The notes below the pieces were generated by a model that was not told the origin of the DNA, did not search any database, and saw nothing but the letters and a program-made list of their open reading frames with translations. Shown here piece after piece: positions 2,657 through 33,017 of a stretch of 33,017 bases of DNA (the first letter of the stretch is position 1; every line of letters starts with the position of its first letter). A program made the translations under genes and the position numbers. This stretch comes from a virus. The DNA lies in the IMG/VR virus record IMGVR_UViG_3300032213_000991, positions 1 through 33,017 of that record. One strand, given 5' to 3'.

Positions 2657-3091
2657 TCAATCTCCCTTTACGTCAACAATGTCACTGATCGGAGACTTGA
2701 TATTGATCCCGATCACCGAAGGCTTGTCAGATTCATCTGGGTTGTCCAGCAGTCCAGAAGCCTTGGCCAGAATGCGCAGCACCCCGACCTTGTCATACAG
2801 CTCGATCTCAAGCGTTGAGTTGCCATCCCGATCAACCTTCTGCTTGATTGACTTGATGGCCGTCAAAGCATGCTCAGGAATCTGGTGCGCAGCCTTCACG
2901 GTCACGTTGCCACCTTCATCCCAAGTCATGATGTCGCTGATCTTGGTGTTGGCCATGCAAAGCAATGCATACGCCACAGCCTCACGGTTGCCGGCCAGCG
3001 TGGTAGACCTCTCAAGCCTGCGCTCAATCGAGCGAGTACCACCCCAGCCAGTCAAGTTGGGGATGTTCGATGGCGACTTAGGTCTGGCCAT
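2657..3091 (-). CDS. terS: Terminase small subunit
   Basis: The 144-residue product is called the DNA-recognition subunit of the packaging enzyme. The evidence is its size, its place just upstream of terL, and a typical C-terminal part (ALTAIKSIKQKV, then STLEIELYDKVGVLRIL and AKASGLL at about residues 75-117). This segment recurs in small terminases of podoviruses with this gene order. The basic N-terminus (MARPKSP) would suit DNA binding. Its ATG shares one base with the stop of the preceding gene (TGATG), implying coupling. It would choose the packaging site; whether packaging is cos- or pac-type cannot be read here. Confidence 0.85.
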   Translation of the reverse strand: MARPKSPSNIPNLTGWGGTRSIERRLERSTTLAGNREAVAYALLCMANTKISDIMTWDEGGNVTVKAAHQIPEHALTAIKSIKQKVDRDGNSTLEIELYDKVGVLRILAKASGLLDNPDESDKPSVIGINIKSPISDIVDVKGD

Positions 3092-3351
3092 CAGAACGGT
3101 ATATCGCTATCGTCAGATGCCATCACAGGCGCTGCTGCAGCTGTGGCCTCAACAGGCTTAGCAGCTTTGGGCTTACCGACCTTGACGCGAAACCACCACT
3201 CACCAGCCGATGTTTTGCCAGGCGTGATCTCCAAAAAGTGTGTAGCGCCATCAGGCAATATCACCTCGCCAGAGTAAGGCGCGTGCCAGTCCTCCACCTT
3301 GTTCTTGTTTACAAAAGCTTTGCCTTGTCCAGGTTTAAGTTCGTATGCCAT
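3091..3351 (-). CDS. Small protein with SSB-like acidic C-terminal tip
   Basis: The 86-residue protein has a compact, beta-rich N-terminal part (about residues 1-60, containing WHAPYSGEV and GEWWFRVKVGKPK), an Ala/Pro linker, and a C-terminus ending DDSDIPF. That ending matches the conserved acidic tip of bacterial single-stranded DNA-binding proteins, which recruits host repair and replication enzymes. The body is too short for a standard SSB OB fold, so it may be a divergent ssDNA-binding protein or a mimic of the SSB tip. A ribosome site AGGA is 7 nt before the ATG. It overlaps terS by one base and lies next to replication-type genes. Confidence 0.65.
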   Translation of the reverse strand: MAYELKPGQGKAFVNKNKVEDWHAPYSGEVILPDGATHFLEITPGKTSAGEWWFRVKVGKPKAAKPVEATAAAAPVMASDDSDIPF

Positions 3352-3360
3352 AAGTCAATC

Positions 3361-3711
3361 CTATCTGTTGGTAAGTGTACAAAATTGCGGAGAATGTTGG
3401 GAAAAATTGTGGGTAACCCCCGTATCGCTACGGTGAGGGGGAGGGGGGAAGGGTCGTTTTTCTACGCGCCCGTCAACGCGCCCGGTATTGCGCGTGTCAT
3501 GCCTGCGCATATGCTTTGCGATCGCTTCCAAGGCCACACGTCGCAGCATGCCCCCTGCTTGTACATAATCCATACGTTCGTATGCCATATGTACAGATTG
3601 ATTTAAACGACGTAGGAGCGATTGCAACATGTACAGGCTACCCATGCCTAGGCTTGCCTGTGATCGAAGCTTGGCGGTACCTTCTGACCCGCGGAGGAGG
3701 CATTGATTCAT
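3361..3711 (-). CDS. Possible 116-residue protein, or regulatory region mistaken for a gene
   Basis: An open frame of 116 codons starts with an ATG that overlaps the stop of the preceding gene (ATGA), as for neighbouring real genes. Residues 20-75 look like a plausible basic helical protein (for example LQSLLRRLNQSVHMAYERM). The last 40 residues are odd (PFPPPPH, coming from a G/C tract). The same DNA holds four TGTACA palindromes, two hairpins and a G-rich run. I keep it as uncertain: either a fast-evolving small gene with embedded sites, or a chance open frame in a control region. Confidence 0.4.
   Translation of the reverse strand: MNQCLLRGSEGTAKLRSQASLGMGSLYMLQSLLRRLNQSVHMAYERMDYVQAGGMLRRVALEAIAKHMRRHDTRNTGRVDGRVEKRPFPPPPHRSDTGVTHNFSQHSPQFCTLTNR
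3376..3635. promoter_or_regulatory. Cluster of TGTACA palindromes with hairpins and a G-tract
   Basis: TGTACA occurs at 3376-3381, 3560-3565, 3590-3595 and 3630-3635. Several are preceded at fixed distance by a TTGCA/ATGGA-like block (TTGCAACA before 3630; ATGGATTA before 3565 on the minus strand), as at other control regions of this phage. The segment also holds a 5-bp hairpin with a GCGA loop on the minus strand (3420-3433), a perfect inverted repeat CATACG-TT-CGTATG (3571-3584), and G runs at 3437-3441, 3443-3448 and 3451-3453. It could control the SSB-like and terminase genes downstream. No classic promoter is clear. Confidence 0.45.
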
Positions 3712-4646
3712 GACGCATCCCGCTTCAACTGTATCAATCCATCAACCAGGTGCTGCTCTTTCGGTGTGATGCCTTCAGCTGCGTAGATGGCCAGCAGGGT
3801 TGCGAGGCCGTCATCGATGTCCTGGTCGGTCAATCCGGCATCGATCAACTTTGGAACTTGGTTGCCTAGAACTAACCTTAGTCTTTCTTTTGTATTTAAA
3901 TAATTATCTATACTAGTCTTTCTTATGTGTTCTTCTGCGTTAAGGGCAACCGTATTAGGTTGCCTATATGGTTGCCTATGGAGCGCTTCATTGGCAACTT
4001 TAGAACTCTCTACATGGGCAACCTCTGGGGTTGCGTATGTAGGTTCCTTTGGTGGCTTCTTTTTAGCGATCTCTTCCTTCATTTTTCTGACAGTCATGCT
4101 GTCCTTTTTCTCTGCCATGGTTGGCTCCTTTCTTGGTTGGTTATTCCTGAGTGCTTGACCGATCAGCTTGGCAATGCGAGCCTGGCCAGCTCGGTCTATC
4201 TCTTGCTGTTCAGCCATGGCTTGCTCCTGTTTGATCACTGGTGGCCGTGTGTCCTCGATTGAGTTGGTCACTGCGATGGCCGTGGCTGTGTCTACGGTGA
4301 TATCAAAGATCACACGCACTGTGTTTGATCTCTCGCCTCTAAAGCCTTTCCTGACCACCTCAACGTAGCCTGCAGCGATCAGCTTGGCCATCTGCTTGGT
4401 GATGGCCTGGCGGCTGACCTTCATGTCCTCGGCCAGCTTCTTCTGGCTAACCCAAGTAAAGCCTGCTCGGTTGCAATAGCTGCACAACACGGCGAGTATT
4501 CGCAGCATGTTGTCTGTGATGGCCTTGTCAGTGACGGCTCTGATCGGCAGCACAGACACCTTGCGCTGATCCGGCATCGGATCTTTTTCTTTGATGCGCG
4601 GCTTCTTTGGTAGCGCAAATGCTATTTGTTCAGACATGTCGCTCAT
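3708..4646 (-). CDS. Helix-turn-helix replication-type protein
   Basis: The 312-residue protein has a winged helix-turn-helix near residues 45-115. The core WVSQKKLAEDMKVSRQAITK is followed by a wing (MAKLIAAGYVEVVRKG). This resembles the N-terminal HTH of phage and plasmid replication initiators of the HTH_36 type. The middle (about 140-230) is a charged, low-complexity linker rich in Lys, Pro and Glu. The C-terminal 80 residues are helical. It lies in a block with RusA, a winged-helix protein and an SSB-tail-like protein. With no polymerase or helicase gene present, it is the best candidate for starting replication and recruiting host machinery. A transcription regulator is the alternative. 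ATG at 4637 is an alternative start. Confidence 0.65.
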   Translation of the reverse strand: MSDMSEQIAFALPKKPRIKEKDPMPDQRKVSVLPIRAVTDKAITDNMLRILAVLCSYCNRAGFTWVSQKKLAEDMKVSRQAITKQMAKLIAAGYVEVVRKGFRGERSNTVRVIFDITVDTATAIAVTNSIEDTRPPVIKQEQAMAEQQEIDRAGQARIAKLIGQALRNNQPRKEPTMAEKKDSMTVRKMKEEIAKKKPPKEPTYATPEVAHVESSKVANEALHRQPYRQPNTVALNAEEHIRKTSIDNYLNTKERLRLVLGNQVPKLIDAGLTDQDIDDGLATLLAIYAAEGITPKEQHLVDGLIQLKRDAS

Positions 4647-5257: not shown

Positions 5258-5676
5258 TTCAATCTCTCGTGGATGTAGACCTCGATGCGCGGGTCATACG
5301 AATATTCTTTTTCTATGACCAGGCGAGTGACTTGTTTGTCATCAACGTAGACCACATGGCATGCGTCAAGCACCGCCTTGGCCACGTTGTCGATGTCTGG
5401 CTTACCTGGTATCAGTGCGTTGTTCAGCGCCAGCATTTGCTTGTGCTTAGGCCAGCTTGGCGGTATGCCGTAGAAGGCCACAATGCGCATGCTGATGGGT
5501 GTTGTGAGCAATGCCATGCCGTTCATTGCAAACGTCGCCTGGCGTGCGATAGCCTGCTCATACGTCACAGTCTTTGCAGGCGTGTACATGCGCACATAGC
5601 CGCCCTGGCTGCTGGCCCGTGGCCGGCCCTTGCCGACTGGTTGACCAGGAACAACAAAGTACAGGGCAACGCTCAT
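5254..5676 (-). CDS. rusA: RusA-family Holliday junction resolvase
   Basis: The 140-residue endodeoxyribonuclease would cut four-way junctions formed during recombination-driven replication, clearing DNA for packaging. Family marks are the N-terminal PGQPVGKGRPR (about 10-20) and the catalytic region GKPDIDN (Asp94, Asp96), followed by VLDA and VYVDDKQV (Asp112/113). These match the acidic metal-binding residues of E. coli RusA. Length is normal for the family. Its ATG overlaps the preceding stop (ATGA). It is functionally linked to the YqaJ-type exonuclease and RecT-type annealase of the rightward unit. Confidence 0.92.
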   Translation of the reverse strand: MSVALYFVVPGQPVGKGRPRASSQGGYVRMYTPAKTVTYEQAIARQATFAMNGMALLTTPISMRIVAFYGIPPSWPKHKQMLALNNALIPGKPDIDNVAKAVLDACHVVYVDDKQVTRLVIEKEYSYDPRIEVYIHERLK

Positions 5677-5849
5677 AGGTAGCCTGCTTGACGCATGTCT
5701 TTGACAAATGCATCAACGTCAGGGCAGGGGATATCACGCCAGCAGGCACCGTCCCCAGTGAGAAAGAGCGCCTCGGTCAACACGTCCTCTGGTATGGGCT
5801 TGCCATCCTTGGCCATGTTGAGCATCTTCAGAGCTTCTTCGTGGTTCAT
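5673..5849 (-). CDS. Hypothetical 58-residue protein upstream of rusA
   Basis: A short gene fits exactly between the ribbon-helix-helix gene and rusA, with ATGA overlaps at both ends. The product is acidic (EDVLTEALFLTGDG, CPDVDAFVKDM) and has no recognised motif apart from two cysteines at 36 and 42. The exact tiling argues that it is translated. Function unknown. Confidence 0.65.
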   Translation of the reverse strand: MNHEEALKMLNMAKDGKPIPEDVLTEALFLTGDGACWRDIPCPDVDAFVKDMRQAGYL

Positions 5850-6040
5850 TGTTTGACCCCAGACAGAAAGCGCTCCAGGCGTGGGCTGAGCTGGCCATAG
5901 CGGGGCTGCAGCTGCTCACGCACACACTGGTCAATGAGTGAGGCGCGAGAGCGGCTTTGATCTTCGGCAGCTCTGTCAAGCAGCGACCTGGTGTCAGGAC
6001 GTAAGCGCATTAGGAATGGTTTGGGTTTGGTGTCTTGCAT
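5846..6040 (-). CDS. Ribbon-helix-helix (Arc/MetJ-like) DNA-binding protein
   Basis: A 64-residue protein with a short N-terminal strand (KPFLMRLRPDTR, about 6-17) followed by two helices (SLLDRAAEDQ; SRASLIDQCVREQL) matches the ribbon-helix-helix plan, in which dimers insert a two-stranded ribbon into the DNA groove. The ATG at 6040 is chosen because earlier in-frame starts would run through the control region; no strong ribosome site is seen. It is the first gene of the leftward unit and faces the recombinase gene across a stretch with three TGTACA-type sites. It is the prime candidate for an autoregulator acting on those sites. Confidence 0.75.
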   Translation of the reverse strand: MQDTKPKPFLMRLRPDTRSLLDRAAEDQSRSRASLIDQCVREQLQPRYGQLSPRLERFLSGVKQ

Positions 6041-6080
6041 GGTGGATATGTCAGTTAGATATACCCTCCGATTGTTGCGT

Positions 6081-6181
6081 TTGGATTGTGTACACGCAAG
6101 CAAATAATAATACCCGGCCAAAGTGTAGGGTTTGCATATTGTACGAATTGATATACATCTGCTACATTTGCGTTATGTACA
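6081..6181. promoter_or_regulatory. Divergent control region with three copies of the TTGSA-TGTAC motif
   Basis: Three motif copies lie in the same orientation: TTGGATTG-TGTACA at 6081-6094, TTGCATAT-TGTACG at 6132-6145 and TTGCGTTA-TGTACA at 6168-6181. Each has exactly eight bases from the first T to the TGTAC core. They lie between the ribbon-helix-helix gene (leftward) and the recombinase gene (rightward), as expected of operators for a divergent genetic switch. GTGTACAC at 6088-6095 is a perfect palindrome. Confidence 0.65.
6132..6159 (+). promoter_or_regulatory. Candidate sigma70-type promoter for the rightward unit
   Basis: TTGCAT at 6132-6137 and TACATC at 6154-6159, spaced by 16 bp, form a weak -35/-10 pair. 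The spacer holds the TTGTAC core of the recurrent motif. The capsid promoter candidate (28985-29012, minus strand) has the same layout with the same spacing. A bound repressor would cover both elements. The -10 is poor, so this may be purely an operator. Confidence 0.45.
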
Positions 6182-6214
6182 CAACAGCGCAGATAAAGCG
6201 CACAGGAGTTAGTG

Positions 6215-6889
6215 ATGACAGTCCACAACGGTAAATTCGTAGCCTACTTCCGGGTCTCTACAGATCGCCAGGGCAAGTCAGGTCTTGGCCTTGATGCACA
6301 GCGCGAGCGCATCCTGGGCTATCTCAACGGTGGCAAGTGGTCGCTGATCGGTGAGTACACAGAGATCGAGTCGGGCCGCATGAATGAGCGCCCAGCCCTG
6401 GCTAACGCCATCAAGCTGTGCAAGAAAGAGAAGGCCACCCTGGTAGTCGCATCTCTTGACCGTCTGACCCGCGACCTGGCATTCGGTGCGCAGCTGCTCA
6501 ACGACACCAAGGTTAAGTTTGTGTGCGCAGATTTCCCAGAAGCCAGCCGAGAGTTGCTGCAGATGCGTATGGTCTTCGCTGAGTGGGAAGCACGCAAAAT
6601 CGGTGAGCGTACCAAAGCAGCGCTGGGTGAGTTAAAGAAGAAGGGCGTAAAGCTTGGCAGCCCGACACCCATGCACGGCTCAGTGGCCGGCACCAAAGTG
6701 ATCATTCAAAAGGCCGATGCCTACGCAGAGCGCGTTCGGCCCCTGGTCTTGGAAGCTATTAAGAAGTCTGGTGCCAAAACCCTGCGCGAGATCGGCCAGG
6801 CACTGGCCAGCCGTGAAATCGAGACACGTCGCGGCAACATCGAGTGGTCTCCAACTCAGGTCAAGAACCTGATGGCACGAATCAAATGA
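6215..6889 (+). CDS. Small serine recombinase (resolvase/invertase type)
   Basis: The 224-residue protein has the serine-recombinase catalytic domain: AYFRVSTDRQG with nucleophile Ser15, the conserved SLDRLTRD (80-87), and the helix E with GERTKAAL. A short C-terminal region (about 155-224) with TLREIGQAL resembles a helix-turn-helix DNA-binding part. It is far shorter than large serine integrases (400 or more residues), so it is more like a resolvase or invertase. ATG at 6215 has AGGAG 6 nt upstream; a GTG just before is an alternative. It opens the rightward unit. It could resolve multimers or act in an unusual integration; no invertible fibre segment or att site was seen. Confidence 0.9.
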   Translation: MTVHNGKFVAYFRVSTDRQGKSGLGLDAQRERILGYLNGGKWSLIGEYTEIESGRMNERPALANAIKLCKKEKATLVVASLDRLTRDLAFGAQLLNDTKVKFVCADFPEASRELLQMRMVFAEWEARKIGERTKAALGELKKKGVKLGSPTPMHGSVAGTKVIIQKADAYAERVRPLVLEAIKKSGAKTLREIGQALASREIETRRGNIEWSPTQVKNLMARIK

Positions 6890-6939
6890 ACATTCAAATC
6901 ATGAATACCCTTAGTGTTGTTAAATATAAAAAAATACAT

Positions 6940-6969
6940 TTGATTTGTATATCTTTGTTAACTTATAGT
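6940..6969 (+). promoter_or_regulatory. Candidate sigma70-type promoter after the recombinase gene
   Basis: TTGATT at 6940-6945 and TATAGT at 6964-6969 are spaced by 18 bp in a very AT-rich gap of about 120 bp, ahead of a gene starting at 7011. It lacks the TGTACA motif seen at other control regions, so it may be a constitutive early promoter for the 7011-10288 genes. Confidence 0.45.
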
Positions 6970-7010
6970 GAACAACCATTGCTTGATTTAGGTCAAGAAA
7001 AAAGGTTTGT

Positions 7011-7454
7011 ATGTTGAAAGGATCACAAACAATGGCAGACAGAAACACACCAGAGTTGGTGAATTGGGCACAGTTTTTTCCATCAGAAGACGGCAAGTTG
7101 GGTGCGTTTTTGGCACGCTCTGGCCGGCCAGTTAACTGCAGGCTTGACTTTAGATTGACCCGCATGGAAGAACTTAAAAAGGCTGCTGTTGTTGTTTCAG
7201 AACTTAACCGCGAGCTGCAGAAACTTGCATATGAAGTTGAAGGCGATCCGGTTTTGCGCGTGATGCTGGCTCGTGGCCATTTTCAAAATGCTCAGTTTAA
7301 ATTGCGTTATGTAGACCCATCCCATGTCCTAAAAGCTGCGGCCAAAAGGACTGCTGAAGCAGCTCAAAAACTCAAGAAAGTAAGAAAGGAGAAAACACTA
7401 CCTATAGCGTTAGGAGACATTTTGGGGTTTGGAATTGATACAAACCGACCCTAA
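7011..7454 (+). CDS. Hypothetical 147-residue early protein
   Basis: I recognise no family. The product has a globular N-terminal half (VNWAQFFPSEDGKLGAFL, RPVNCRLDFRLTRMEELKK) and a helical, very basic C-terminal part (about residues 105-130, rich in Ala and Lys), which would suit nucleic-acid or protein binding. ATG at 7011 has AAAGG 5 nt upstream; ATG at 7032 is an alternative giving 140 residues. It is the first gene after a candidate promoter in the recombination-bearing rightward unit. Confidence 0.7.
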   Translation: MLKGSQTMADRNTPELVNWAQFFPSEDGKLGAFLARSGRPVNCRLDFRLTRMEELKKAAVVVSELNRELQKLAYEVEGDPVLRVMLARGHFQNAQFKLRYVDPSHVLKAAAKRTAEAAQKLKKVRKEKTLPIALGDILGFGIDTNRP

Positions 7455-7487
7455 TAAATACTGTAATTAATCAAAAAGGATTAAATA

Positions 7488-7724
7488 ATGAACATAATCA
7501 AAGCGCAATCGAATATGTGTAATGTTGGTTCTAACTCCAGCTGGCCACAAAACTACGTCCAGCTGGATCTCACTTCATACGATGTATATAGTGTTTATGA
7601 AGTTGAAAAACACTACCTATGGTGTACCGGCCAATCTGAAACTACCCTCGAAAAACTAACTGTAGCCGTTTGTTTCCTGGCTTCAGTTGTAGTTTTGTGT
7701 TTTTCTGTTTTTGTGGTTTTCTGA
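7488..7724 (+). CDS. Small protein with C-terminal membrane helix
   Basis: The 78-residue product has a polar N-terminal part with three cysteines and one strongly hydrophobic segment at about 57-78 (TVAVCFLASVVVLCFSVFVV), ending at the stop. It would be a tail-anchored inner-membrane protein with its N-terminus in the cytoplasm. AAGGAT lies 6 nt before the ATG. A role in early takeover or superinfection exclusion is possible by analogy with small early phage membrane proteins, but nothing in the sequence shows it. Confidence 0.65.
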   Translation: MNIIKAQSNMCNVGSNSSWPQNYVQLDLTSYDVYSVYEVEKHYLWCTGQSETTLEKLTVAVCFLASVVVLCFSVFVVF

Positions 7725-7725
7725 T

Positions 7726-7914
7726 ATGCAGAAAACTACATACCCGACAAAAACTCTCGCCCAGGGCTGCGAGTACACAACAGCTGCTGCAACCAATGTG
7801 CAGCTGACCTGGCGACGTTTTGGCTGGATTCCCATGGCCGAAGTGGCTGCCAATGAGGAAGCTAAAAGCACTGTCAAGCGTGCCAAAACACCCAAAGAGG
7901 TGAGCCATGCTTGA
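7726..7914 (+). CDS. Hypothetical 62-residue protein
   Basis: The ATG lies one base after the stop of the membrane-protein gene (TGAtATG) with no ribosome site of its own, so translation is probably coupled. The product contains LTWRRFGWIPMAEVAANEEAK and a basic C-terminus (VKRAKTPKE). I recognise no family. Its end overlaps the next gene by 8 nt. Confidence 0.6.
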   Translation: MQKTTYPTKTLAQGCEYTTAAATNVQLTWRRFGWIPMAEVAANEEAKSTVKRAKTPKEVSHA

Positions 7915-8200
7915 GCAAACTGCTGGCCAACAAATCCGCAATTCCCAGCTCGACATGTTTGAGGTTCGGGATGCTGAGTTCTTAACCAGGTGCCGAAGCA
8001 TTGCCATGCAGATCGCCATGCGCAAGGGTGAGGTATCCATCAATGACATTCGGGCCCACATCCAGGTGCCTAACGGTGTCCACCCCAGTGTCTTGGGTGC
8101 AGTCTTTCGCACCAAACAATTCAAAAAAATCGGTCTTTGCGAGGCTTCCCATAAAGAAGCCCATGCAAGGGTCATCCGCGTTTACGCATTAGCAGACTAA
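7907..8200 (+). CDS. Hypothetical winged-helix-like protein
   Basis: A 97-residue protein whose middle (GEVSINDIRAHIQVP then HPSVLGAVFRTKQFKKIG) has the helix-turn-helix-plus-wing order seen in small phage proteins that lie beside recombination genes. It ends EAHARVIRVYALAD, like the C-terminal strand of such folds. The start at 7907 overlaps the previous gene (8 nt). It probably binds DNA and may act in replication or regulation; this is inference from pattern only. Confidence 0.6.
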   Translation: MLEQTAGQQIRNSQLDMFEVRDAEFLTRCRSIAMQIAMRKGEVSINDIRAHIQVPNGVHPSVLGAVFRTKQFKKIGLCEASHKEAHARVIRVYALAD

Positions 8201-13093: not shown

Positions 13094-13107
13094 ATGGATT
13101 TTGTACA
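13094..13107. promoter_or_regulatory. Copy of the recurrent intergenic motif
   Basis: ATGGATTT-TGTACA on the plus strand fills the gap between the tail assembly chaperone gene and the small membrane-protein gene. It matches the copies at 6081 and 3573 in both sequence and spacing. On the minus strand TTACAAT follows it and could serve as a -10 element for 12877-13074. Confidence 0.5.
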
Positions 13108-17523: not shown

Positions 17524-17537
17524 ATGGAAATTGTACG
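17524..17537. promoter_or_regulatory. Copy of the recurrent intergenic motif before the tail fibre gene
   Basis: ATGGAAAT-TGTACG on the plus strand lies in the 36-bp gap between the 946-residue protein gene and the tail fibre gene. It keeps the eight-base spacing to the TGTAC core seen at 6132 and 13094. The minus strand reads TACAAT here, a possible -10, but no good -35 is present. Confidence 0.5.
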
Positions 17538-28984: not shown

Positions 28985-29012
28985 ATTGTATGAGTATTTG
29001 TACAAAATGCAA
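28985..29012 (-). promoter_or_regulatory. Candidate promoter for the capsid gene with embedded TGTACA
   Basis: On the minus strand TTGCAT (29012-29007) and TACAAT (28990-28985) are spaced by 16 bp, a fair sigma70 pair. The spacer carries TTTGTACA, completing the recurrent TTGCA-N3-TGTAC motif (29012-28999), as in the 6132 promoter. It lies directly downstream of the scaffold terminator and about 140 bp before the capsid ATG. The leader between has no long open frame. Confidence 0.6.
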
Positions 29013-32689: not shown

Positions 32690-33017
32690 TCAACCGCCTA
32701 ACAAAGTCTTTAGTTGATTTTCGTCATTGGCTGCTGACGGCAAACCAAGCTCTGGGTTTATCCTGGCGGTGGATAGCAAAGATCTACGGCCAGCCCTGCG
32801 ACGTGCGGTCATCTGCCCAGATTCACGCTCAGCAATCTTGCGACGCTCAGCATCAAGCGCAGCCGTCTGGTCTTTGGCTTGCTTTTCCATCAGTGCTTTT
32901 TGTTCAGCGTACTGGGTCTGCTGTTGAAAGAGTTGTGCTTTAGCAGCTTCTGCAGATGCAGCTTGTTGAGTTGTAAGTCCCTGCATCAGCTTGGCTTGTT
33001 CTGCTGCACTTAATTGA
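32690..33017 (-). CDS. Ala/Gln-rich coiled-coil protein A, 3' part (continues from 1-443)
   Basis: This is the C-terminal part of the 215-residue protein whose start lies at 443; bases 32895-33017 repeat 1-123. The frame joins without gap on a circle of 32,894 bp. The segment contains Gln-rich helix (FQQQTQYAEQKALMEKQAKD), then the basic motif TARRRAGRRSLLSTA, and ends KTLLGG. The stop TGA at 32690-32692 overlaps the start area of gene B. No hydrophobic segment is seen in this half. Confidence 0.85.
   Translation of the reverse strand, partial: QLSAAEQAKLMQGLTTQQAASAEAAKAQLFQQQTQYAEQKALMEKQAKDQTAALDAERRKIAERESGQMTARRRAGRRSLLSTARINPELGLPSAANDENQLKTLLGG
32895..33017. repeat. Right copy of 123-bp terminal direct repeat
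   Basis: Identical to 1-123. See the left copy for the argument that this marks closure of a circular or circularly permuted molecule rather than a biological terminal repeat. Confidence 0.93.

Follow-up and report, generated by a model that had tools for sequence, protein, structure and literature searches.

An asymmetric 14-letter motif, WTGSNNNN-TGTACR, recurs in the intergenic DNA of a small tailed phage from freshwater and of its relatives, where, judging from its sequence and placement, it very probably serves a phage protein as binding site. We consider it probable that a repressor encoded by the phage uses the motif as its operator in several transcription units, and that the likeliest binder is a 64-aa Arc-like ribbon-helix-helix (RHH) protein whose own promoter carries three of the sites.

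The window, meaning the whole 33,017-base stretch of DNA that was analysed, corresponds to one complete virus record of IMG/VR. Its termini (1-123 and 32895-33017) repeat the same 123 bases exactly and in direct orientation, so that the contig closes on itself, though the record is classed as linear, and the genome unit is ~32.9 kb. Genes were recognised for a terminase, a head-tail connector, a capsid protein, tail tubular-like proteins, RecE/RecT-like proteins, RusA and an O-like initiator, partly via comparison with the nearest isolate, Methylophilales phage MEP301, to which the capsid is 74% identical. Relatives are numerous among metagenomic viral contigs, and a DNA search of a phage collection with positions 5800-7500 gave zero matches. 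The sites and the features around them are as follows.

3352-3707, no strand: conserved noncoding segment with four sites; no codon-position bias.
3368-3381, plus strand: site just upstream of the SSB-like gene, TTGGTAAG-TGTACA; missed in the first-pass annotation.
3560-3573, minus strand: left arm of a 36-bp inverted pair around CATACGTTCGTATG, ATGGATTA-TGTACA; kept in many relatives.
3582-3595, plus strand: right arm of the same 36-bp inverted pair (3560-3595), ATGCCATA-TGTACA; identified by match and conservation.
3622-3635, plus strand: third site in the gap between the O-like and SSB-like genes, TTGCAACA-TGTACA; close relatives only.
5846-6040, minus strand: 64-aa Arc-like RHH protein, proposed binder and autoregulator; identified by profile matches.
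6081-6094, plus strand: site 1 of the divergent promoter, TTGGATTG-TGTACA; exact match.
6132-6145, plus strand: site 2, TTGCATAT-TGTACG; relatives have TTGGGGCT-TGTACG and TTGGGGGT-TGTACA.
6168-6181, plus strand: site 3, TTGCGTTA-TGTACA; relatives have TTGGGTCA- and TTGGGCTG-TGTACA.
6215-6889, plus strand: serine recombinase of 224 aa with a resolvase domain (Pfam PF00239, 1.8e-25), transcribed away from the RHH gene.
13094-13107, plus strand: site on the lysis side of the tail genes, ATGGATTT-TGTACA; exact match.
17524-17537, plus strand: tail-fibre site, ATGGAAAT-TGTACG; abuts the ribosome-binding site of the tail-fibre gene on its upstream side.
28999-29012, minus strand: capsid promoter site, TTGCATTT-TGTACA; TTGCAT is the -35 and TACAAT (28985-28990) the -10, with a 16-bp spacer.

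The earlier observation holds, and more strongly than first stated. The first-pass annotation had proposed nine sites under the consensus WTGSAWWN-TGTACR, and all nine are present in the window, correctly placed, on the right strand and with both orientations represented. The consensus itself holds exactly in six of the nine, against 0.03 exact matches expected in shuffles, and has to be relaxed for the sites at 6168, 3582 and 3622, which deviate within SAWW. The loosened form WTGSNNNN-TGTACR finds 10 sites in the window where dinucleotide shuffles predict 0.78, and none of 100 shuffles reached 10; the spacing is likewise non-random, with WTG fixed eight bases ahead of TGTACA. All 10 matches lie in intergenic DNA and none in coding DNA, in a record that is ~4% intergenic (binomial p ~1.5e-14). 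Perfect TGTACA is indeed scarce in coding DNA, with eight of its 12 occurrences intergenic and four coding (p ~4e-9). Taken by itself, TGTACR shows no genome-wide enrichment (31 versus 23) and was rejected as a signal, and the signal therefore consists of location together with the fixed WTG.

As the pattern had been read off the window, these statistics are partly circular, and an independent test was therefore made in relatives. Thirty related viral records yielded 101 matches, 10 of them supplied by the close relative G001, versus a single match for the reversed pattern. Among nonredundant relatives, 99 distinct contexts were intergenic and 26 coding, in 213 and 852 kb respectively, corresponding on approximate gene calls to densities of 0.47/kb versus 0.03/kb, or ~15-fold; because of those approximate calls, the coding matches probably include misassigned gaps. 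The reversed control gave one intergenic and three coding matches, ~0.004/kb in both. Motif density is thus low in shuffles of the window and in the coding DNA of both the window and its relatives. The motif also recurs at the same junctions in diverged relatives, namely the RHH gene promoter, the gap between the O-like and SSB-like genes, the capsid promoter, the tail-fibre leader and the region downstream of the terminase. Intergenic restriction, shuffles and shared junctions together support the earlier suggestion of a genome-wide, protein-bound regulon. A Hyphomicrobiales contig with a capsid homologue (L258) was set aside, as no RHH gene was found in its genome and its motif matches are mostly coding and look like chance.

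A logo built from 50 sites with distinct flanks shows conservation of C at -2, T at 0, WTGS at 1-4 and TGTACR at 9-14, with a free right flank, and the refined consensus should be WTGSNNNN-TGTACR with C preferred at -2, two bases before position 0. Each site can be read as a pair of hexamer boxes, CNTWTG and TGTACR, whose centres are 11 bp apart. In some relatives, a third box on the opposite side creates a 22-bp palindrome, TTGSNNNN-TGTACA-NNNNSCAA. In L253 and L252 (G013 25721 and G010 24735), TAGAAT comes immediately after this palindrome, downstream of the terminase gene.

The segment between the O-like and SSB-like genes carries four sites; it holds a 116-codon open frame, and its coding status had been considered doubtful. 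Substitutions relative to relatives are spread evenly over codon positions (e.g. 23/21/19) and frameshifting indels occur, while the neighbouring genes show the usual third-position excess; these counts mark the segment as noncoding, and the open reading frame at 3361-3711 was rejected as a gene. Searches for other signals gave no Rfam match, no RNA structure over 3361-3700 (z-scores 0.07 and -1.0) and, in a simple scan of 3.4-3.7 kb, no sigma-70 layout (TTGNNN, 16-18 bp, TANAAT). The site at 3368 is kept in L007, L008 and L046, and as ATGGCGAG-TGTACA in L039, and the inverted pair at 3560-3595 is retained in diverged relatives (in G014 as TGTCCA...TGGACA), some of which have lost one arm. As a whole, the ~350 bp of 3352-3707 are strongly conserved, with 10 changes in 302 bases versus L007, and possibly constitute a replication origin. 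The adjacent small protein encoded at 3091-3351 ends in DSDIPF, resembling an SSB acidic tail, and its positional counterpart in MEP301 is annotated as an ssDNA-binding protein.

With four sites in the noncoding gap adjoining its gene, and the inverted pair there among the best conserved, the O-like replication initiator (3708-4646), which has a winged-helix domain, could be the binder; the adjoining sites would then be origin elements and the others regulatory. It is the main rival to the RHH protein because its presence tracks the motif about equally well. Three relatives without the motif, G011, G028 and G029, in which the RHH protein is 57% identical, have a shortened O-like homologue or none, so that presence and absence cannot separate the two proteins. 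Sites at the capsid, terminase-downstream and RHH promoters are, however, ill-suited to an initiator. Moreover, G008 keeps its sites at the RHH promoter and in the gap between the O-like and SSB-like genes with an RHH protein that is 65% identical and an O-like protein that is just 27% identical over part of its length, which mildly favours the RHH protein. We therefore regard the initiator as an unlikely binder.

At the capsid operon, the window reads TTGCAT-TT-TGTACA-AATACTCA-TACAAT, a sigma-70-like promoter that satisfies the layout TTGNNN, 16-18 bp, TANAAT, with the box within its 16-bp spacer. The same layout, TTGNNN-NN-TGTACA-N8-TAGAAT, is found downstream of the terminase in relatives, and ~20 distinct sequences of the form TTGNNN-NN-TGTACA-N8-TANAAT were collected from relatives, in which the box sits in the 16-bp spacer. 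In the close relative G001, a terminase-downstream operator promoter occupies the place where the window has a GNAT acetyltransferase gene (445-903). At the capsid operon, many relatives have the motif upstream of a TTGACA or TTGCAT -35, and others have no recognisable copy. The earlier preference for a protein-binding site over a simple promoter is accordingly upheld as to the protein site and qualified in that the capsid and terminase-downstream sites lie within sigma-70-like promoters. Since TTG serves as the -35 element at those two promoters, the motif might be imagined as a promoter feature only, a -35 TTG plus spacer with no binding protein of its own. That reading is highly improbable, as TGTACA is not a sigma-70 element, and the full motif is kept with no -35 role in the head-to-head pair at 3560-3595, in the relatives' sites upstream of the -35 and in sites of opposite orientation.

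Two further sites of the window are less widely shared. The tail-fibre site at 17524 overlaps a minus-strand TACAAT box that resembles a -10 element and is the weakest of the set, because distant relatives keep TACAAT and lose the GTAC core; there, it may be mainly a promoter. The site at 13094, among few homologous gaps, is kept in L195 only.

The region between the RHH gene and the serine recombinase contains three sites that are kept in the window's clade, with one or two in many other relatives. Site 1 (6081) is kept as TTGGNNNN-TGTACA in eight of nine other aligned sequences, and a simple scan for the sigma-70 layout (TTGNNN, 16-18 bp, TANAAT) finds none at 6.0-6.2 kb. As three sites adjoin the recombinase gene, the motif could in principle be a res- or att-like binding site for that enzyme. 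This is extremely improbable: many relatives have the recombinase gene at another place in the operon and their sites stay with the RHH gene, as they do where the divergent gene differs, and sites at the capsid and tail promoters do not fit. Immediately 5' of the recombinase Shine-Dalgarno is a 5' leader hairpin, GCGC-AGATAAA-GCGC (6187-6201). The same element precedes the first early-operon gene in relatives, where changes in the stem compensate each other and the loop reads AGATRAM; the count of such covariation is biased because the examples came from a search requiring pairing.

Assignment of the candidate binder to the Arc-like RHH proteins comes from profile matches across its family. 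Of 26 family members, 19 match the Arc-like repressor family phrog_3431 (best 1.5e-7) and four match Pfam Arc, while the window protein alone matches weakly (3e-4 in PHROGs, 0.1 in Pfam). The AlphaFold monomer is a single long helix with no PDB match in Foldseek; it is uninformative as to the RHH fold. The gene is present in 30 of 30 relatives, a figure that is partly due to selection because many of them were fetched by an RHH query, with six first fetched for other genes. Speaking against this candidate, G022 and G023 keep the motif with an RHH protein just 44% identical, and in the L143 group (77-78% identical) the RHH promoter retains no more than a degenerate site. In MEP301 the motif is absent and the RHH-like protein only weak. 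A second conserved palindrome, TAGGGNNTTACCCTA, separates the RHH gene from the gene divergent to it, in single copy, in 15 of 30 relatives (e.g. G002 5285-5299 and G017 6021-6035) and is absent from the window's clade; it could be an RHH operator in place of the motif, or another operator. The features expected of an Arc/RHH operator are found here, namely an RHH-domain protein, boxes about one helical turn apart and sites at the protein's own promoter, and binding of the sites by the RHH protein is plausible from what the genomes contain.

Two broader classes of binder were also weighed. Several small early proteins belong to no family, and YefM-type antitoxins, which are not RHH proteins, use TGTACA cores (PMC4803016), so another phage-encoded regulator, unrecognised here, could bind the motif. 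Since YefM has another fold, the box by itself is not diagnostic of its binder. This alternative is nevertheless rather unlikely, as no Phd/YefM Pfam match was obtained in ten small or early proteins, the RHH protein included, and a 97-aa gene (7907-8200) is missing from the motif-bearing G012 and G015, which led us to reject its product as a necessary partner or binder. A host transcription factor would be in keeping with the use of host machinery implied by MEP301, a cultured relative without an RNA polymerase gene of its own (PMC8024684). The presumed host genus, taken as that of the MAG holding a related capsid contig, showed no enrichment across 31 genomes, with 663 matches versus 710 for the reversed pattern, a result that still leaves room for a small host regulon; a host factor is very unlikely.

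With the phage-encoded Arc-like repressor as the preferred reading, its action can be sketched as follows. At 6081-6181 the protein would occupy promoter DNA of both the RHH gene and the recombinase gene, and the presence of sites at the RHH promoter points to autoregulation. Binding at the capsid and terminase-downstream promoters would mask the spacer that separates -35 from -10 and keep RNA polymerase off; as a protein in the 16-bp spacer would block the polymerase, its position there suggests a repressor and not an activator. The repressor would thereby control the early divergent region, the SSB and replication region, the capsid operon, the tail fibre and the lysis side together, and in relatives also the operon downstream of the terminase.

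Dispersed operators are known from other phages. The C1 repressor of P1 has 22 dispersed, asymmetric operators of 17 bp (PMC8546580), which the present set resembles in having an asymmetric site repeated over the genome for one (here predicted) phage repressor, and from which it differs in sequence and in the proposed Arc-like RHH binder. With regard to lysogeny in this family, the part of the genes searched yielded only a 224-aa resolvase-type recombinase in the early region, and a capsid query retrieved only eight contigs from bacterial assemblies, none demonstrably a prophage. The stoperators of L5 and cluster A phages, asymmetric 13-bp sites that number over 20 and occupy promoters and short gaps between genes, are bound by a monomeric repressor with two HTH-type domains (PMC9283540, PMC6550527). 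The sites described here share the intergenic and promoter placement, the asymmetry and the multiplicity, as well as a site at the candidate repressor's own promoter; they are fewer (up to 10), occur in both orientations where L5 sites are oriented with transcription, and have an RHH candidate in place of the cluster A monomer.

Among smaller systems, the RHH repressor RelB binds hexads [A/T]TGT[A/C]A, its dimers lying on one DNA face (PMC2812701). The hexad resembles the TGTACA box, and P22 Arc and RelB share with the present case a small RHH protein, short boxes that are spaced by about one helical turn and share a DNA face and, as predicted here, autoregulation; RelB acts on its own operon, in contrast to a set that spans early and late units. 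The YefM-YoeB operator, which overlaps its promoter, has a TGTACA core hexamer and two boxes 12 bp apart (PMC4803016). The motif likewise has a TGTACA core and two boxes, with the differences that the spacing here is 11 bp, that YefM is not an RHH protein and that no YefM homologue was present among the early and small proteins tested. Our search of the literature on RHH operators and related phages, incomplete in its coverage, found no Arc-type genome-wide operator set. No Arc-type repressor with sites spread over the genome in this way is known to us, and while dispersed phage operators as such are known from P1 C1 and L5, an Arc-type, family-wide version appears to be undescribed.

A more speculative extension, which we hold only tentatively and think doubtful in its full form, is that a small freshwater podovirus-like family uses one Arc-like RHH regulator and at most 10 dispersed operators to run both early and late genes, with replication titrating the repressor and so timing the early-to-late switch with neither a lysogeny repressor nor a phage RNA polymerase. 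To our knowledge, next to nothing has been learned of how genes are controlled in the abundant freshwater phages, as yet uncultured, that are related to MEP301. With an operator defined, a repressor proposed and its target promoters conserved, gene control in these phages becomes experimentally answerable, and the motif would be a simple sequence mark by which promoters and transcription units could be annotated across hundreds of related metagenomic genomes.
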